Positions 39,294 through 51,682 of a stretch of DNA of 64,000 nt are shown piece after piece. The position numbers and the translations under genes are program-made. Under the pieces are notes generated by a model that saw only the letters and a list, made by a program, of their open reading frames with translations, was not told the origin of the DNA and searched no databases. The stretch covers positions 496,001 to 560,000 of the forward strand of contig NZ_JAHWUS010000003.1 in assembly GCF_019455445.1 (NCBI RefSeq). The letters run 5' to 3'. Numbering within the stretch: position 1 is the stretch's first letter; every line of letters begins with the position of its first letter. The DNA comes from Pseudaquidulcibacter saccharophilus (lineage in GTDB: Bacteria > Pseudomonadota > Alphaproteobacteria > Caulobacterales > Aquidulcibacteraceae).

Positions 39294-42158
39294 TTAGAAT
39301 TTAAGCTTGAAGCCCATGTAGTAAGCGCGGCCCAAAACGTCAAATGCGTTTGGATCAGTGTTACCATCTGGAGAGTTATCAAATACAGGTGGTTCTTTGT
39401 CGAATAGGTTATTAACACCAAAGATAAGATCTGTAGATGGTGTAACCGCCCAACGTGCTTGCGCATCTGTAACAGTATAAGCATCAGTACCAATGTAACC
39501 ACCATCTTCAAATACAGGTAGGTTTCCTTGGTTTTCCATTTTATCGTAATAAGTGGTGTTAACGGTAAGTTTAACGTCACCGATGTTGTAACCTAGAGAA
39601 AGAGTTGCTTTGTATTCAGGCAATGTTGCAGAAATATTGTATGAACCAATAGTTCCAGCATATTCAATACCATCCAACTCATATGATTTTAGGTAGTTCA
39701 TCAACAAGTTCACAGACATTTTGTCGTCAAAGATTTTGCTGTCTTTTACCAACCAACCTAGTGGAAGTTTGTAATCAACGCTTAAGTCAACACCTTGTGT
39801 TTGAAGCGCTGAAACGTTGCCCAATGAAGTTCTAACTTTAAGCTCACCAGTTGAGTCGCGATAAATCGCAGGTAGACCGATATCAGAATCGAAACATGCA
39901 GTTGAGTTCATGTCATTAGATGCGAAACATGCATTAACAACACCAGAAGCACCACCGAATTTAGTACCGATATAGTCTTCAACTTTGATGTCATAGTAAT
40001 CAAGAGTTACGGCTAGGCCTGGTACATAAGAAGGACGATAAACCGCACCCAAAGTCAAAGTCTTGCTGGTTTCCGCATCAAGATGCTTGTTACCATAAGA
40101 GAATGATTCGATTTGTGAGTTAGGTTGTACGAAACCAACAGTTACAGGGTTTACACCAAGTTGAGCAGTACAGAACGCAATTGTTTGAGCAGAAAGTGTT
40201 CTTGATGCACCGTTGTTTACGTTTTTAGTTGAGCAAGGATCGGTGAATTGAGGGAAGCCTTGGTCACCAGATTGGAACAATTCAAACGCAGATGGTGCAC
40301 GGCTTGCTTGCTGATACATTGCGCGAACCAACAAGTCATTAACAGGTTTCCATTGTAAACCTGCTTTGAATGCAGTGGTTTCACCAACTGATGAGTAGTT
40401 TGAGTAACGACCACCAACTTCAAGATCAAGTTTTTGAGCAAACGGAAGATCTGCAAGAAGAGGGAAGGTTGCCTCACCGAAGAATTCAGTAGCGTCATAA
40501 CCACCAGAAACCGGACGTTCAGCGTTGAAGCCGAAGATGTCGCCAGAGCCGTGAGCAGCATCAGGTTCGAATGCGAAATCATCTTTACGATATTCTGCAC
40601 CAACGTTGAAGCTTGCATAGCCTGCAGGAAGTTCAAACAGGTCACCACCAATGTTTGCGTTCAATACTGTACGTTCAAAGATTGTTGTATCGCTGAAGTT
40701 CAAACGAACGAAGTTAACTGCTGCTTCTGAAGCAGAGTTTGCACCAAACAAATCAAATGGTACGCAAGTTGGGAAGATTGCAAGAACCGCTGCGCCGCAA
40801 GAAGTTGTAGTTGCGCCTTGGCTAGTGCCGCGGGTAGCAGCAATCATTCTTGAACGAGAAACGTCGTTATATGTTGCGTCTCTGAATTCAGTTCTTCCGT
40901 AAGAAGCACTTACATCCCATTTAAAGCCAGTTGCAGTTGTGCCACCAATGCCAGAGAAGAATTGGAATTGTTTGTTGTTGTGGTCTTGAATACGTGCGCC
41001 AACTTGATCCATACGTTTACGGAAAACAAAGTTATCATTTGGATTTGCACGAGCAGCAAGAATTGATGCAAAGCTTGCGTCGATGAATGGGTTATCAGTT
41101 GCAACAGACAAACCAGTCATTGGAGTAGGTGCCAATTGGCTAGACTGACGGTTGTCAGTGTAGAACAATTCAAGACGACCAGTTACGTTATCAGTAAAGT
41201 TATATTTACCGAAAACAGCTGAAGAGATTCTTTCGCCAGGTGACATAAGGTTGTTTACTGGTGAGAAGTTGTAACGGTCATTAACCGCAGCGGTCATGTC
41301 GAAATCGTTACAATAACCTTGTGCAACGCCAGCTGCTGTAAATGAAATGTTAGTTGAAGAACCGTTTGATTGACAACCAGCGTTAGTAGCAGTTGATGCA
41401 AACGGGTTCAAAGGAACGTTATCAGCACGACCAGCAACACCAGTTGCAGAACCACCGGCATTTGAATATTTCGCCCAATCGCGTTCACCAGCAAGAACTA
41501 CATCACGTTTATAGTAAGATGTATAAGCAGTAATGTTACCTTTGCCATCAGCAAAGTCAGTGCCTAAGATTGCTGAGATGTCATAAGACGCACCATCACC
41601 AACTTCTGTAATGCCTGATTGGCCAGAAATTTGAAGACCATTGAAGTGATCTTTCATGATGAAGTTAACAACACCAGCCATCGCGTCTGAACCATATGTA
41701 GCAGATGCGCCACCAGTAACAACTTCAACTCTTTCAATCAAACCAGCAGGAATTGCGTTAAGGTCGATTGCAGAAGAAGCTTTTGTAGCAGGGGTCATAC
41801 GGTGACCGTTTACAAGAACTAGAGTTCTTGATGGGCCAAGACCACGAAGGTCAACAGTTGCAGTACCATCTGATGGGTTGTTTGATGCAGCAGTTAAACC
41901 AGGAACAACTTGTGGAAGGTTGTTAAGGATTTTTTCTGTTGTAAGCGAGCCAGTAGCTGCGATTTGAGCAGCGCCAAGTGAGGTAATCGGGCTTGCAGAA
42001 ACGTAATCTTTTTTAGCAATACGAGAACCGGTAACAACAACAGTATCACCAGTTGTAGTATCTTGTGCCATTGCAGGCATAGCCATTGCTAGACCGGAAA
42101 TAATGGTCCCTGCAAGCAATGCACCGCGCAGTTTATTAGAGTGTAAATTTATTTTCAC
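39294..42158 (-). CDS. TonB-dependent outer-membrane receptor 1
   Basis: A 954-residue TBDR: signal peptide with LRGALLAGTIISGLAMAMP and cleavage after AMA, a short linker with the TonB-box-like DTVVVTGSRI, plug domain (TEKILNNLPQVVPG, VDLRGLGPSRTLVLVNGHR, IERVEVVTGGASATYGSDAMAGVVNFI) and a 22-strand barrel ending in Phe (YYMGFKLKF). It imports an unknown large or scarce ligand with TonB energy; peptidase genes nearby suggest peptides, as inference. The start is a GTG at 42158 with AGGAG 9 nt upstream. Its promoter and leader are shared with TBDR 2. Confidence 0.93.
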   Translation of the reverse strand: MKINLHSNKLRGALLAGTIISGLAMAMPAMAQDTTTGDTVVVTGSRIAKKDYVSASPITSLGAAQIAATGSLTTEKILNNLPQVVPGLTAASNNPSDGTATVDLRGLGPSRTLVLVNGHRMTPATKASSAIDLNAIPAGLIERVEVVTGGASATYGSDAMAGVVNFIMKDHFNGLQISGQSGITEVGDGASYDISAILGTDFADGKGNITAYTSYYKRDVVLAGERDWAKYSNAGGSATGVAGRADNVPLNPFASTATNAGCQSNGSSTNISFTAAGVAQGYCNDFDMTAAVNDRYNFSPVNNLMSPGERISSAVFGKYNFTDNVTGRLELFYTDNRQSSQLAPTPMTGLSVATDNPFIDASFASILAARANPNDNFVFRKRMDQVGARIQDHNNKQFQFFSGIGGTTATGFKWDVSASYGRTEFRDATYNDVSRSRMIAATRGTSQGATTTSCGAAVLAIFPTCVPFDLFGANSASEAAVNFVRLNFSDTTIFERTVLNANIGGDLFELPAGYASFNVGAEYRKDDFAFEPDAAHGSGDIFGFNAERPVSGGYDATEFFGEATFPLLADLPFAQKLDLEVGGRYSNYSSVGETTAFKAGLQWKPVNDLLVRAMYQQASRAPSAFELFQSGDQGFPQFTDPCSTKNVNNGASRTLSAQTIAFCTAQLGVNPVTVGFVQPNSQIESFSYGNKHLDAETSKTLTLGAVYRPSYVPGLAVTLDYYDIKVEDYIGTKFGGASGVVNACFASNDMNSTACFDSDIGLPAIYRDSTGELKVRTSLGNVSALQTQGVDLSVDYKLPLGWLVKDSKIFDDKMSVNLLMNYLKSYELDGIEYAGTIGSYNISATLPEYKATLSLGYNIGDVKLTVNTTYYDKMENQGNLPVFEDGGYIGTDAYTVTDAQARWAVTPSTDLIFGVNNLFDKEPPVFDNSPDGNTDPNAFDVLGRAYYMGFKLKF

Positions 42159-42247
42159 TGTGGGTTTCTCCTAAAATTTTCCCCTGCTTTGAGACATACA
42201 GTCCCATTGCAAAGCGGAAAATTTGTTGAAAACGCCACTTAAGTCAA
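42159..42247 (-). promoter_or_regulatory. TBDR 1 promoter and structured leader
   Basis: On the minus strand: -35-like TTGACT (42247-42242), then a leader hairpin TGGGAC/GTCTCA (42206-42190) with a 5-nt loop, a G-run, and AGGAG before the GTG start. The 54 nt next to the start align without gaps to the same region of TBDR 2 with about 44 identical bases. Confidence 0.6.
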
Positions 42248-42271
42248 CTTACTTATTACATTTAAGTAAGT
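42247..42271. promoter_or_regulatory. 9-bp inverted repeat overlapping the TBDR 1 promoter
   Basis: ACTTACTTA (42247-42255) and TAAGTAAGT (42263-42271) form a perfect inverted repeat with a 7-bp spacer, touching the -35-like TTGACT. It looks like a regulator operator and is not kept in the otherwise similar TBDR 2 promoter. Confidence 0.55.
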
Positions 42272-42520
42272 GCATTCGCGTAACTTTGTCGCAAGTGTTG
42301 CGCAATTGTCGCAATTTGTTAAATCTTTATGTTTTTTATATCTATAATTGAAGATAATTTTCTCAAGATGTAGGAATTATAAGCAAGTTTCTTTCTTGTA
42401 AATAAAGCATAGTTCATTAAATTTAGTATATGCAGGTAAATATTATACAATAATTGCCTGTTTTTTGTACATGTTTTTAATGTTTTTGCACGCTTATTAG
42501 TTATTTATGCCAGTGAAAAT
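42272..42520. other. AT-rich spacer between TBDR 2 end and TBDR 1 promoter
   Basis: No gene seen. Contains GTCGCAAGTGTTGCGCAATTGTCGC near 42289 in broken palindromic form (ttgcgcaa core), possibly upstream regulatory sequence. Confidence 0.4.
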
Positions 42521-42543
42521 GGCGGGCATTCATTATGCCCGCC
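42521..42543 (-). terminator. Hairpin terminator of TBDR 2
   Basis: GGCGGGCAT (42521-42529) pairs with ATGCCCGCC (42535-42543); on the minus strand it is followed by ATTTTC. Strong stem, modest T tail. Confidence 0.75.
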
Positions 42544-42559
42544 AATCAATTATTTAAAC

Positions 42560-45500
42560 TTAGTACTTGAATTTCATACCAATTCGGTAAGTTCTTCCAA
42601 TTACACCCGCCGCAGAGAAGGCATAGTTGAAGTTTGATACACGTGAAGCATAACCAGTTGAACCATAAGAAGAGTTAGGGTCATAAGGTGCTTCGTTATT
42701 GAATATGTTACCAATATCAACATATCCAGTGTAGTTTTCATTTACTTTATACTCGAAGTGAGCGTCAGTATAAATGAAAGGCTTAACTTCACAAACAACA
42801 GGTGTTTTACCATCACGGTAGTAAGAGATTGTATGCAAGCCAGCAGCACATGGTTGATCCCATGTATCGCCTTGGTCCATTGCAATCCAGTTATAGCTAC
42901 CAGTGTAATAAGTTGTGAAGGTAGTGCTGAAGTTGCCATATTCAAATGTATTCTGCCAGTTACCTTTCCACTTTGGAGTACCAGAACCAGAAGTAATATC
43001 GTTATTACCTAAGGTACCATCAAAGCGTTCTACGTTACCTGCCATATCTTTTTGTTTGTAATATGAAATATATGATGCTTGAAGCCCAGTATTCCATTTC
43101 ACAGTGTTGAAAAGATTAAAGCGACCATTTGCAGCAAAGTCAAAACCAGAGTTGGTCATTTCAGCCAAGTTTTGGCGTGTGAAAATAACATATGCAACAC
43201 GTGGAATTGCATTTGGATAAAGCGTATCAGCTTCATCGGCAACAATTTTATAACCATCCGGAACGGTCTGACCAGCAAGGAATGCCTCAACAGCAGCGGC
43301 CCAACCAGATGGAGTCATGATAACATCTTTTTTGGTGATTTTGTAATAATCAAGAGACAAATCAATGTTTTTCAATGGACGATAAACAACGCCAAGAGAT
43401 GCACCAGTTGATTTTTCAGGTTTTAGGTCTTTTGCGGCAATTGTTGTTTTACCAATGCTGAATGCACTAGCATAAGTGTTGTTACCATGTGACGCCTTCC
43501 AAGCAGCGTTGCTAGACGTATAGCTAACAAAGCCTGTGGTTGGATCAGAGTTGGTTTCAGCAATTGAAGGGGCACGGAAACCTTTTGAGATGCTTCCACG
43601 GAATGCCAAGGTTGGCATTACTTCCCAGCGACCACTAAGTTTTGGTGAAAATGCTGATTGACCAGTTGAGTATTTGTCATAACGACCGCCAAGATTAAGA
43701 TCTAGGCCTTTTAATACTGGCGCATTCAATTCAAAGAATGCCGCATGAACAGAACGTCCACCAACTGCACCAAATGGGTTAATCGCAGAAGTCCAACGCA
43801 TAGTTGGATCGCCGCCAATTGGGTCTGGGTTCGCAGAGCGGTTTGAGATAGATTCCCAACGGGTATCAAGGCCCAAACCAATTGTTGACATACCGCCAGG
43901 CATAGAAATCAAATCTCTTGATGCGATACCTCTCAACTCGATTAGCTGTGAAACAGAGTTTTGAGTATTAACTGGTGCGATATAATCTCTTGTTGCCTGT
44001 GTGTTTGCAGACGGATTAACAAAGTTATACATACCGCTGTTAATGGCATTAACAAGATGGTTTAAATATAGAACGCCGTGACGCTCATAAGTAAGCCTGT
44101 TGTCAGATGCAGCGAGGTCAACACTATAATTCCATTTACCCGCACTTCCATCGATGCCAGTAGCAAAGCGGAATACTTGGTCAGTGGTTTCAGTGTAACG
44201 AGGAATATCTTCAAAGCGATAGAAGATTCTTGCAACATAACCTTGTGACGCAAATGGGTTGTTAGGGTTAAGTGTGCCATTAGCAGATGTACATGTAACT
44301 GTACCGATTGGGCATACATAAACTGGTAAGTATGCACCTAGAGAACCATATACACTGTTGGTTGCGTTCAAGCTAAATGTTGTACCAGCTTGACCAGCAG
44401 TTGCACCGCTTCTTAAAGGTTGCGGCGTGCCATCAAGGTGAGACTTATACTGATAGCCGCTAAACATGAAGTGAACTTGAAGGTTATCGCTTAGGTCTTT
44501 TACGCCATGCATAGCAAATGATGCACGAGTGTTTTCAGGATTCAAAACCGCGTATTTGTTTACGACATCCAACTGACAGAATGTTGGGTTAGATGCATAA
44601 CCAGATGTTGCTGTCGCACCAGGAACCATTGCTGTTCCAACGGTTACAGATGTCATAGAACCACAGCCTGCAGAAGGGTTGATTAATTGGTAATCACCTT
44701 TTTGAGTAGTGCCTAAATATGGTCTAACAACTGCTACACCAGTACCAGCGGTGCTTGCGCCAGTAAATGTGCCGTCAAATTGCAAACCGTTTACAATACC
44801 ATTTGTACGGCATGTTTGCTTGCCATCAACAACTGATGTTGCGCATAAACCGCTCATATTTGCTGTATTATAAGGATAGTCTAGATCATAAGCATGTAGC
44901 TCATCAGTGTGTTGATATTCTGCAGCAAAATAAAGGTTATAGCCATCATCAGCTAACTTTCCTTTGCCCCATAATATATTACCACCATAGTTTGCCTTAC
45001 CGCCATCAAAACGGTTGCCACCGTATATTTTACCGCTTAAGCCTTTATATTCTTTGCGGCTGATAACGTTAATAACGCCTGCAATGGCATCCGCGCCATA
45101 TGTTGAAGACGCACCTTCTTGAAGGACGTCCATTTGCGCTGTTACCATGTTAGGAATTGCGTTCAAGTCAACAAAGTTTCTTGTCGCATCATCGGCAAGT
45201 GGATAGTATGCCATGCGCATGCCATCAACAATTGTTAATGTTGAGTTTGATGTCATAGAGCGTAATGAAATAGCAGATGCACCTTGTGCAAAGTTTCCGC
45301 CTGCAGACCATTCGTTGGTCATTGCGCCACCACCGTTACCAGGAAGTGTTTGCGCAATTGCTTCAATTGTGGTTCCGCCACGTTTTTCCATTTGCACGGC
45401 ACTGATTTCTGTAATCGGCGCATTTGCTTTTAGGTTCTTGTTGCGGATAATCGAGCCTGTTACAATAACTACGTTCTCATCGCTCTTTACGGCCGTTTTT

Positions 45501-45598
45501 TCTTGCGCCATTGCCGGTGATATAAATATCATTCCCGAAATAATGGTCCCAGCAAGCAAAGCACCGCGTAGTGTGTTTTGTCTGTTTTGTCTTTCCAA
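42560..45598 (-). CDS. TonB-dependent outer-membrane receptor 2
   Basis: A 1012-residue TBDR. The signal peptide core LRGALLAGTIISG is the same as in TBDR 1 and ends at PAMA. The TonB-box-like ENVVIVTGSII is followed by the plug (IEAIAQTLPGNGGG, ISLRSMTSNSTLTIVDGMR, ASSTYGADAIAGVINVISRK) and a long barrel ending RIGMKFKY. It differs strongly from TBDR 1 after the signal peptide, so ligands probably differ. The start is TTG at 45598 with AGGAG 9 nt upstream, in the same leader as TBDR 1. Confidence 0.92.
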   Translation of the reverse strand: MERQNRQNTLRGALLAGTIISGMIFISPAMAQEKTAVKSDENVVIVTGSIIRNKNLKANAPITEISAVQMEKRGGTTIEAIAQTLPGNGGGAMTNEWSAGGNFAQGASAISLRSMTSNSTLTIVDGMRMAYYPLADDATRNFVDLNAIPNMVTAQMDVLQEGASSTYGADAIAGVINVISRKEYKGLSGKIYGGNRFDGGKANYGGNILWGKGKLADDGYNLYFAAEYQHTDELHAYDLDYPYNTANMSGLCATSVVDGKQTCRTNGIVNGLQFDGTFTGASTAGTGVAVVRPYLGTTQKGDYQLINPSAGCGSMTSVTVGTAMVPGATATSGYASNPTFCQLDVVNKYAVLNPENTRASFAMHGVKDLSDNLQVHFMFSGYQYKSHLDGTPQPLRSGATAGQAGTTFSLNATNSVYGSLGAYLPVYVCPIGTVTCTSANGTLNPNNPFASQGYVARIFYRFEDIPRYTETTDQVFRFATGIDGSAGKWNYSVDLAASDNRLTYERHGVLYLNHLVNAINSGMYNFVNPSANTQATRDYIAPVNTQNSVSQLIELRGIASRDLISMPGGMSTIGLGLDTRWESISNRSANPDPIGGDPTMRWTSAINPFGAVGGRSVHAAFFELNAPVLKGLDLNLGGRYDKYSTGQSAFSPKLSGRWEVMPTLAFRGSISKGFRAPSIAETNSDPTTGFVSYTSSNAAWKASHGNNTYASAFSIGKTTIAAKDLKPEKSTGASLGVVYRPLKNIDLSLDYYKITKKDVIMTPSGWAAAVEAFLAGQTVPDGYKIVADEADTLYPNAIPRVAYVIFTRQNLAEMTNSGFDFAANGRFNLFNTVKWNTGLQASYISYYKQKDMAGNVERFDGTLGNNDITSGSGTPKWKGNWQNTFEYGNFSTTFTTYYTGSYNWIAMDQGDTWDQPCAAGLHTISYYRDGKTPVVCEVKPFIYTDAHFEYKVNENYTGYVDIGNIFNNEAPYDPNSSYGSTGYASRVSNFNYAFSAAGVIGRTYRIGMKFKY

Positions 45599-45686
45599 TG
45601 TAGGTTTCTCCTAAAATATTCCCCCGCACTGAGGCAAAAAGCCCCACTGCAATAAAAAATTTGTTAGAAAATTACTACTTAGTCAA
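45599..45686 (-). promoter_or_regulatory. TBDR 2 promoter and structured leader
   Basis: On the minus strand: TTGACT (45686-45681), leader hairpin TGGGGC/GCCTCA (45646-45630) with loop TTTTT, G-run and AGGAG. Relative to TBDR 1 the stem has changed an A-U pair to G-C, keeping pairing. Confidence 0.6.
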
Positions 45687-45936
45687 TCCAAACATTACAT
45701 TTTTGACATGATTTCTGCACATTTTTGCCATAATTAATGCATGATTTTGCCATTATTTAGAAAAATCATTATTAGATTGGCATTTTGGCAACCAATTCTA
45801 TCTAAAAAAGGTGTGTATTGGTTGGCGTAAAATATGAAATACTAAATATTGAATTGTTGCTTATTGTTTTTTGTTTCAGTCTTTGTCTGATTCAATGTTT
45901 CTATATTTAATATTTGTACTCATGTTCAGGAATATA
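45687..45936. other. AT-rich spacer between TBDR 3 end and TBDR 2 promoter
   Basis: No gene seen. Two TTTTGCCAT-like copies near 45725 and 45747 and a broken ATTGG...CCAAT pair near 45776-45795 may be regulator sites. Confidence 0.35.
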
Positions 45937-49612: not shown

Positions 49613-51682
49613 ATGCAAAAATTCAAGAAAAATTTTCTGATGACCTTAACTAGTTTGGCTACGGTTGGCCTTGTTTCTTATGGATTGCCAGCTATGGCAG
49701 AGCCTTGGAAACCTTCCACACCTGCATTGCCTGTTAGTAACATTGCTGATTTGCAAGTTATGAGTAGCGTAGTTATTTCACCTGATGGAAAACATGTTGC
49801 GGCTGTTACACTTGGCAGTAATAGACAAAATGTTGTGACCGTTTGGTCAACGGATGACATGACCAAGGCGCCGGTAACTATTGGCGCATCGTCAATGTCC
49901 ATATATTCAGTACAATTCCTGAAAAATGATCGTATTATGATAACCGGTCTTACTCCTGTTACCATGGGAGCGAATTCAGAATGGTACGCCAAATATACTA
50001 TTACAGACCTTGAAGGCAAAAAGTTTATTGAGCCATTTGGAAGTCAGGGCGAAATTTCAAACAAAGCTGGATTAGTTAGTCGACTTGGTAATGATAAGGA
50101 AAACGTATTATTTCAGGTTTTTAACGAAAAATCTTATACAGTAGATTTAGTGAAATATAATATTTATAAAGGAACCCAAGAAAGGCTTGCTCGTGGCGGT
50201 GACTACGAAGAATATGGCAGAGTCGATTCTAAAGGTGAACTAAGAACTAAATCTGAATTGAAACCTGAAGGCGGTAGTTGGATTAACCACATTTATTGGA
50301 AAAATCCTTCCGGCGATTGGATAGAACAACTTCCTCTTAAAGATGACATACATGAGAGACATACAATAAGTATTATCAAGCTTAATTATGATGCATCCAA
50401 GGCGTGGGTTATATCCAACCAGGAAGCAAATTATGCAGAAATAAAATTGTATGATTTCGCAACCCAAAAGTATGAAAAAACGCTTTTCAAAAATACTGAG
50501 TTTGATGCATCTGGCGTAGTATTCTGGCAACCATCTGAAGATGCTAATGAAGATGATCCAGTTTTGGGTGATATAGTGGCCGGTTATTGCTATGATGAGG
50601 CTGCAGAAGTTTGCGTTTATTCTGACCCAACTCTAAAAGGGTTACAGGCAAAATTAGAAAAATTATTCCCAAATACAAATGTATCTATTGTTGCAAGAAA
50701 AGGTGGTAAAGCTACTTTAGTGAAGGTCTCTGCGCCGCAATATCCAACGACTTGGTTCTTGCTTAAAGATGGCAAAAATCTAATTAAGATTGGTAGTGTT
50801 CTAAAAGATTTTGATATGAAAAATCTCGGAACAGCTCAATGGGTTGATATACCTGCGCGTGATGGAAATAAAATTCCATCCGTTGTTTACCTCCCACCTG
50901 GATACGATAAAACAAAAGATGGAACTATACCTTTGGTTGTTATGCCGCATGGTGGACCTTGGGCGCGCGATTATTGGGATTGGGATTTTTCTAATTGGGC
51001 ACAAATGTTTGCAACACGCGGATTTGCGGTTATCCAACCGAATTATCGAGGTTCTGAGGGACTTGGCTTGCAACATTGGAAAAATGGCGACAAGCAATGG
51101 GGTCTTGGAATGCAAGATGACGTTGATGATTCCGCGAAATGGCTAGTTGCACAAGGTGTTGCTGACCCTAACCGTATGATGGTGTATGGTTACTCTTATG
51201 GTGGTTTCTCGGCATCTGCTGCTGCAGCTCGCTCTGGAGGCGCTTCTAAGGGCTTATGGCAATGCGCAATTTCAGGTGCGCCTGTAATTGATATTGATAA
51301 ACTAAGGACTAATGAATGGGGTGAGGGGCGTATCCAACGTAAGGTACAAGGTTGGACCGTTGACGGATGGAACCCTCAAAAACATCTTGATGAAGTGGAA
51401 ATTCCTTGGCTAATTTATCATGGTGAATATGATCGTCAGGCTGATACAATGTATTCACATGATGCAACTGCTAAAATGAAGGCTTTGAATAAACCTAACT
51501 TTAAATATGTTGAAATTCCGCGAATGTCGCACCCTTTGGTTAAACAATACCCTGTACAACGCGAGTATTATTTGAACTTGATGTTGGATTGGATGGCAAA
51601 CGATTGCGGAAATATTTCAAAATATTTTGATGCACCAGATTCATCGTCCGCTGTAAAGAAAAAGCCGCCAAGCGGTCAGTAA
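49613..51682 (+). CDS. Exported S9-family prolyl oligopeptidase-type peptidase
   Basis: A 689-residue secreted serine peptidase. A signal peptide (cleavage after AMA, near residue 29) is followed by an N-terminal beta-propeller (repeats such as VVISPDGKHVAAVTL) that filters substrates by size, and a C-terminal alpha/beta hydrolase: VVMPHGGPWARDYWDWD, nucleophile Ser528 in GYSYGGF, Asp607 in HGEYDRQAD and His640 in RMSHPLVK. It should cut short peptides in the periplasm. A GAGTGG stretch lies before the ATG. Divergent from TBDR 3. Confidence 0.92.
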   Translation: MQKFKKNFLMTLTSLATVGLVSYGLPAMAEPWKPSTPALPVSNIADLQVMSSVVISPDGKHVAAVTLGSNRQNVVTVWSTDDMTKAPVTIGASSMSIYSVQFLKNDRIMITGLTPVTMGANSEWYAKYTITDLEGKKFIEPFGSQGEISNKAGLVSRLGNDKENVLFQVFNEKSYTVDLVKYNIYKGTQERLARGGDYEEYGRVDSKGELRTKSELKPEGGSWINHIYWKNPSGDWIEQLPLKDDIHERHTISIIKLNYDASKAWVISNQEANYAEIKLYDFATQKYEKTLFKNTEFDASGVVFWQPSEDANEDDPVLGDIVAGYCYDEAAEVCVYSDPTLKGLQAKLEKLFPNTNVSIVARKGGKATLVKVSAPQYPTTWFLLKDGKNLIKIGSVLKDFDMKNLGTAQWVDIPARDGNKIPSVVYLPPGYDKTKDGTIPLVVMPHGGPWARDYWDWDFSNWAQMFATRGFAVIQPNYRGSEGLGLQHWKNGDKQWGLGMQDDVDDSAKWLVAQGVADPNRMMVYGYSYGGFSASAAAARSGGASKGLWQCAISGAPVIDIDKLRTNEWGEGRIQRKVQGWTVDGWNPQKHLDEVEIPWLIYHGEYDRQADTMYSHDATAKMKALNKPNFKYVEIPRMSHPLVKQYPVQREYYLNLMLDWMANDCGNISKYFDAPDSSSAVKKKPPSGQ

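Follow-up and report, generated by a model that had tools for sequence, protein, structure and literature searches.

A shared promoter, leader and signal-peptide block in front of two TonB-dependent receptors with conflicting body histories in Pseudaquidulcibacter saccharophilus

We analyzed a stretch of 64,000 nucleotides (nt) of the Pseudaquidulcibacter saccharophilus genome (assembly GCF_019455445.1, contig NZ_JAHWUS010000003.1, positions 496,001 to 560,000; hereafter, the window, with coordinates counted from its first letter), in which two neighbouring genes on the minus strand encode TonB-dependent receptors (TBDRs). The genes TBDR1 (39294..42158, GTG start at 42158, 954 amino acids) and TBDR2 (42560..45598, TTG start at 45598, 1012 amino acids) share a homologous 5′ block comprising the promoter region, a leader that folds better than its shuffled versions and most of the signal peptide, and the histories of the receptor bodies conflict with that of the block. 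We lean, with some reserve, towards the view that this is a constant expression block and that recombination exchanges the receptor bodies behind it, perhaps with a protective stem-loop similar to that of Escherichia coli ompA. One genome per species was used in the comparisons; G000 is the window's genome and G018 is a second genome of the same genus.

The 54-nt leaders of TBDR1 (42159..42212) and TBDR2 (45599..45652, both on the minus strand) are identical in 44 of the 54 ungapped positions, as estimated in the first-pass annotation, compared to 13.7 ± 3.1 matches in mononucleotide shuffles (highest value, 31 in 20,000). The upstream region of the third receptor gene of the locus, TBDR3, which had been said to lack the element, indeed matches the TBDR1 leader at the level of chance (14/54). 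Using BLASTN, the TBDR1 block (42094..42263, minus strand) was aligned to the TBDR2 block (45534..45702, minus strand) over 173 bp with 74.6% identity (expectation value, E, 1e-21), i.e., from about −105 to +64 (codon 22) relative to the start codon and thus beyond the leader, which begins at −54; therefore, the homology takes in the promoter region, the leader and the signal peptide. Among the contents of the block are TTGACT, a possible −35 element (42242..42247 for TBDR1 and 45681..45686 for TBDR2, minus strand) that begins 89 nt and 88 nt upstream of the respective start codons, exactly as noted earlier, an AGGAG Shine-Dalgarno (SD) sequence (read from the sequence of TBDR1 at 42168..42172, minus strand, 9 nt before the GTG), and the signal-peptide stretch LRGALLAGTIISG, common to both proteins. 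In an all-against-all comparison of the start regions (−200 to +120) of the 42 TBDRs of G000, a common leader together with a common signal peptide was seen in only two pairs, namely TBDR1/TBDR2 at E 3e-22 and L015/L016 at E 6e-19; the members of the second pair are also neighbours, with plug domains 3.2 kb apart. This other tandem pair (G000:C6, about 258-262 kb) has a common promoter, leader and signal peptide in front of unrelated bodies.

The approximately unbiased (AU) test rejected the TBDR1 and TBDR2 bodies as sisters (p 0.001), the group of TBDR1, its G018 allele and TBDR2 (p 0.003), and the L015 and L016 bodies taken with their G018 copies (p 0.03). The body trees group across loci, with TBDR1 next to L015 (support 93/95 and 92/94) and TBDR2 next to L016 (87/89). 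Outside G000, bodies of the TBDR2 type were detected in 11 of 397 genomes of the order (E <= 1e-60, 34-42% identity), and in none of the other four genomes of the genus. In line with the earlier statement that the proteins diverge after the signal peptide, matching 5′ blocks stand in front of bodies that are not sisters. A conflict of this kind between the histories of block (E 1e-21) and body (AU p 0.001) is what a bab-like exchange is expected to leave, and it points to one of two routes, copying or conversion of the block from one neighbour to the other, or insertion of bodies behind it.

Comparison of G000 and G018 revealed replacement of bodies as well. The 42 TBDRs of G000 were matched with 30 of the 41 TBDRs of G018, yielding 26 reciprocal-best pairs, and in 23 of these the bodies are 88-98% identical as protein. 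The three exceptions are L010/L154 (G000:C5, about 169 kb; body 57.8%, leader 75/75) and L021/L163 (G000:C4, about 823 kb; 53.6%, 74/75), in both of which the body diverged and the leader was kept, and TBDR1 (36.2%, 63/75). The identity profiles of these three pairs run at 87-95% over the leader and the first 150 nt, and go down to 44-79% in the body. For L010/L154, identity falls sharply after about 150 nt, and similarity is back around the stop codon; for TBDR1 and its G018 allele, the matches are 82/90 (−165 to −75), 63/75 (−75 to 0) and 82/90 (first 90 coding nt), followed by 125/210. At the window locus, identity between the two genomes is 92-97% for the flanking proteins, with most neighbours at 94-97%, and 94% for the binding protein, compared to 34% for TBDR1, 37% for TBDR3 and 45% for the peptidase, and TBDR2 is absent from G018. 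The 5′ block of TBDR1 is kept inside this otherwise replaced stretch. It should be noted that the S9 peptidase (49613-51682), lying at 45% between neighbours of at least 94%, was seemingly replaced with the receptors.

Both leaders had been reported to fold into a hairpin, TGGGAC-loop-GTCTCA in TBDR1 (42190..42206, minus strand) and TGGGGC-loop-GCCTCA in TBDR2 (45630..45646, minus strand), and our predictions agree with this and extend it. In the predicted fold, this inner hairpin has 6 bp and a loop of 5 nt, and is followed outward by a TGC/GCA step and by an outer helix of 9 bp, AAATTTTCC/GGAAAATTT. For the extended hairpin of TBDR1 (42174..42224, minus strand) to be part of the RNA, transcription would have to start upstream. 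Compared to dinucleotide shuffles, the 67-nt leaders of TBDR1 (−21.4 kcal/mol, z −3.67) and TBDR2 (−21.5 kcal/mol, z −3.44) fold better, and the 54-nt leaders alone have z values of −1.90 and −2.76, respectively. The third copy, found in G018 in front of a different receptor body, has the inner stem TGGGGC/GCCCCA and the loop AATGC (z −2.70), so that the inner stem is intact in 3/3 leaders with three different loops. Standard pairs fill 53 of the 54 pair cells in the alignment of these three leaders; one pair has changed on both sides and four on one side, and sliding of the partner strands gives 68.5% pairing at most. These counts were taken from the three-row alignment only; in a six-leader alignment, MAFFT left the distant hairpins unaligned. 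The chance that all inner-stem pairs survive random substitution is 1.4% without transition bias and rises to 11% if that bias is strong. The leaders of G020, G019 and G007 resemble these by eye, with a hairpin followed by GGGGA and the SD, but the G020 leader folds only modestly better than shuffles (z −1.99).

The element is narrowly distributed. A model of the two leaders (R1) detected one further copy in 60 genomes of the family, that of G018 (E 1e-18), and model R2, applied to 398 genomes of the order, returned, besides the copies of TBDR1, TBDR2 and G018, a single hit in G021 (E 0.004). The latter sits behind a malate-dehydrogenase-like gene and not before a TBDR, and was rejected; the same applies to a weak hit in G000 (C5:304113, L048, E 0.0016), which on inspection does not precede a TBDR. 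The element was accordingly found in two of the 398 genomes, the window's own and one of the same genus. A genome-wide look for more TBDR leaders of this type had been suggested earlier; the R1 search of G000 to E 10 found none besides those of TBDR1 and TBDR2. The 13 loci with relatives of the TBDR2 body that were read in other genomes contain related signal-peptide motifs, and none of them has this leader, some of the predicted starts probably being placed too far downstream. Rfam 15 gave no matches in the window at gathering scores.

We also compared upstream structure across the TBDR genes of G000 (Plug was matched 42 times at E <= 0.001, and 40 of these matches exceed the cut-off), with start codons chosen by rule, to that of 83 control genes. 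The TBDR upstream regions are more structured from −60 to −8 (mean z −1.01 vs −0.15, p 0.005), the folding energy differs from −45 to −8 (p 0.006), and no difference in structure was found from −110 to −58. Between G000 and G018, 72 of 144 predicted pairs in 26 TBDR leaders survived a change, compared to 48 of 149 in 20 control genes; as each pair enters the count from both sides, the values are not independent. When starts and folds were read for 45 of 80 named TBDR loci, many had a stem-loop before the SD (judged by eye, uncounted). Given the excess of structure across TBDRs, a short stem-loop before the SD seems to be a common, not a special, feature of these genes. A separate observation is that GGGG lies in the 20 nt that precede the start codon in 23/42 TBDRs vs 14/83 controls, i.e., the ribosome-binding sites are unusually G-rich.

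Several observations weigh against the exchange of bodies behind a constant, structured block. In a smaller tree, the support for TBDR2 with L016 is 55/22, TBDR2 being a long branch. In the L021/L163 pair, identity declines gradually across the first 600 nt, with similarity back around the stop codon; for TBDR1 and its G018 allele, similarity returns only about 300 nt past the stop codon; and TBDR3 of the same locus was replaced along with its leader. With respect to the hairpin, one outer pair is broken in TBDR2 (a U-U mismatch in the 9-bp helix, the single broken cell of the alignment), the homologous G019 leader folds no better than shuffles (z +0.54), the z difference between TBDRs and controls vanishes from −45 to −8 (p 0.18), and two-sided changes are no commoner in TBDR leaders (6/144) than in controls (7/149). 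Covariation over the three sequences, with their one two-sided change, is not significant: 163 of 500 column shuffles do as well. Of the compensatory base pair proposed in the first-pass annotation, the change is real and pairing is kept, but significant covariation is not found. Weighing the folding z values and the kept inner stem against these shuffles, we consider the modelled hairpin probable and its covariation suggestive only.

The shared block could also result from plain tandem duplication of a whole TBDR gene, after which the bodies diverged fast while selection preserved the promoter, leader and signal peptide; the hairpin would be incidental. TBDR1 and TBDR2 are adjacent on the same strand, sharing of the 5′ block is confined to neighbouring pairs, and in G020 a TBDR1 homologue is found in tandem duplicate (74% and 73-79% identical copies). 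However, the body trees reject both tandem pairs as sisters and the TBDR2-type bodies are scattered over the order; therefore, duplication followed by divergence is unlikely. It can be argued, alternatively, that the leader is a target of the trans-acting small RNA alphaR8 (MmgR/SisA), which would pair near the SD, as for the TBDR mRNAs of Caulobacter. An alphaR8 RNA (RF00519, 48.5 bits, gathering score 41) with the exact 10-mer UUUCCUCCCU is encoded in G000, and its predicted pairing to TBDR starts is stronger than to controls (−9.2 vs −5.2 kcal/mol), with values of −12 or below in 7/42 vs 0/83. This seed is not specific, however: 15 of 150 shuffled seeds separate the TBDRs as well, so that the pairing does not go beyond that of control seeds, and 28 of 150 give at least 7 strong sites; the excess is due to G-rich SDs. 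Furthermore, TBDR1 and TBDR2 are average targets (−9.5 and −10.8), and such targeting needs no hairpin, and we regard it as an improbable account of the leader. The RNA itself (L188, with the 10-mer at G000:C8:56636-56645, minus strand, and a terminator alongside) is a likely TBDR regulator; the gene near it is presumably a CpdR-like response regulator.

A riboswitch-like reading, in which the leader would be a cis-regulator of these receptors alone that responds to a ligand or a protein, was one of two options named in the first-pass annotation; it would fit a structured leader with the stem kept in all three copies. Against this, the loops differ in every copy, Rfam has no match at gathering scores, the element was found in only two genomes of one genus, and the conserved core is limited to the stem, GGGGA and the SD, and we consider a regulator of this type very improbable. 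The other option, spread of an expression cassette, is favoured by the different histories of block and bodies, and good support exists for an expression unit common to both genes.

In the explanation that we prefer, i.e., the exchange of bodies behind a constant 5′ block with a strong SD, neighbours in tandem TBDR arrays would share the block via gene conversion or because a new body was placed behind a copy of it, and between genomes of the same genus the body can be replaced while the block stays. Homologous recombination may use the block as one anchor. With less certainty, and by analogy with ompA, the stem-loop may be located at the mRNA 5′ end or close to it, acting as a general stabilizer that leaves AGGAG free, with no ligand switch. 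The position of TTGACT is compatible with a hairpin near the mRNA 5′ end, though without a consensus −10.

The nearest parallel found is that of the Helicobacter pylori genes babA/babB/babC, in which exchange in the first 60-240 bp joins a body to another 5′ region (PMC4552749). Both systems involve surface proteins and a body coupled to another 5′ region, with matching ends and a differing middle in bab. Unlike in bab, the proteins here are alphaproteobacterial TonB-dependent receptors, phase variation by CT repeats was not noticed, and the 3′ end is not clearly common to TBDR1 and TBDR2. The 5′ untranslated region of E. coli ompA is described as stabilizing its mRNA (PMC2777011). In ompA and in the present genes alike, the mRNA encodes a protein of the outer membrane and has a stem-loop, here predicted only, ahead of an SD that is left free; the likeness is at the level of predicted structure, and sequence homology is not claimed. 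Details of the protection by the ompA stem-loop are reportedly found in a 1992 paper by Belasco. Two further papers concern small RNAs: SisA, an RNA of the alphaR8 family, represses Caulobacter TBDRs, and its pairing with their mRNAs was tested by compensatory mutation (PMC12559287, also the source of our 10-mer); RusT likewise acts as a repressor of TBDRs (PMC11005374). TBDR leaders are post-transcriptional control points for SisA/CrfA in Caulobacter crescentus, which resembles the situation here, where an alphaR8 RNA is also encoded; unlike in Caulobacter, the pairing in G000 is predicted only and not specific. In the literature on TBDR stem-loop leaders, TBDR mosaicism and shared leaders, most subscription journals being outside the scope, no account was found of this element or of a rule placing breakpoints at the signal peptide. 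We read body exchange behind a constant block as a new form of the known shuffling of surface proteins.

The gene order at the window locus is SppA, TBDR1, TBDR2, TBDR3, S9 peptidase, OppA-type binding protein and peptide permeases, and from this gene content peptide uptake is a fair guess for its role. TBDR1, TBDR2 and TBDR3 have Plug (PF07715) and beta-barrel (PF00593) domains above the cut-off, which identifies them as TonB-dependent receptors; the named receptors closest to TBDR1 are mainly from Caulobacter and Sphingomonas relatives. A consensus scan detected no consensus sigma-70 promoter and no consensus −10 at either TTGACT, and placed a terminator-like hairpin after TBDR2 (42520..42544, minus strand); as this hairpin closes the TBDR2 unit, TBDR1 probably has its own promoter. 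Two other candidates were discarded. A small upstream open reading frame (ATG/GTG GGR ...) overlapping the TBDR starts stays open in all three copies (TBDR1, TBDR2 and G018). However, no SD precedes it, and between G018 and TBDR1 the encoded amino acid differs at four of the first six codons. The TTGCG boxes that recur upstream of TBDR1 are not a TBDR-wide operator, with no enrichment in TBDRs (25/42) vs controls (50/83). In G020, the second tandem TBDR1 homologue (L057, G020:C5:71603-74460) is split over two frames, by a frameshift or an assembly error.

TonB-dependent receptors decide diet and phage entry in many aquatic bacteria, with dozens possible per genome. A more far-reaching possibility, which we put forward tentatively and with doubt, is that promoter-hairpin-signal-peptide blocks are fixed expression sockets, each an expression unit and a recombination anchor, behind which bodies would be repeatedly swapped between paralogues or strains with expression retained; if so, the swaps may serve new peptide substrates or escape from phages. 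The constant block with exchangeable bodies predicts a testable rule, that breakpoints lie at the signal peptide, and carries a warning that receptor orthology taken from position and promoter can mislead. If this explanation is true, a newly transferred receptor would be expressed at once.

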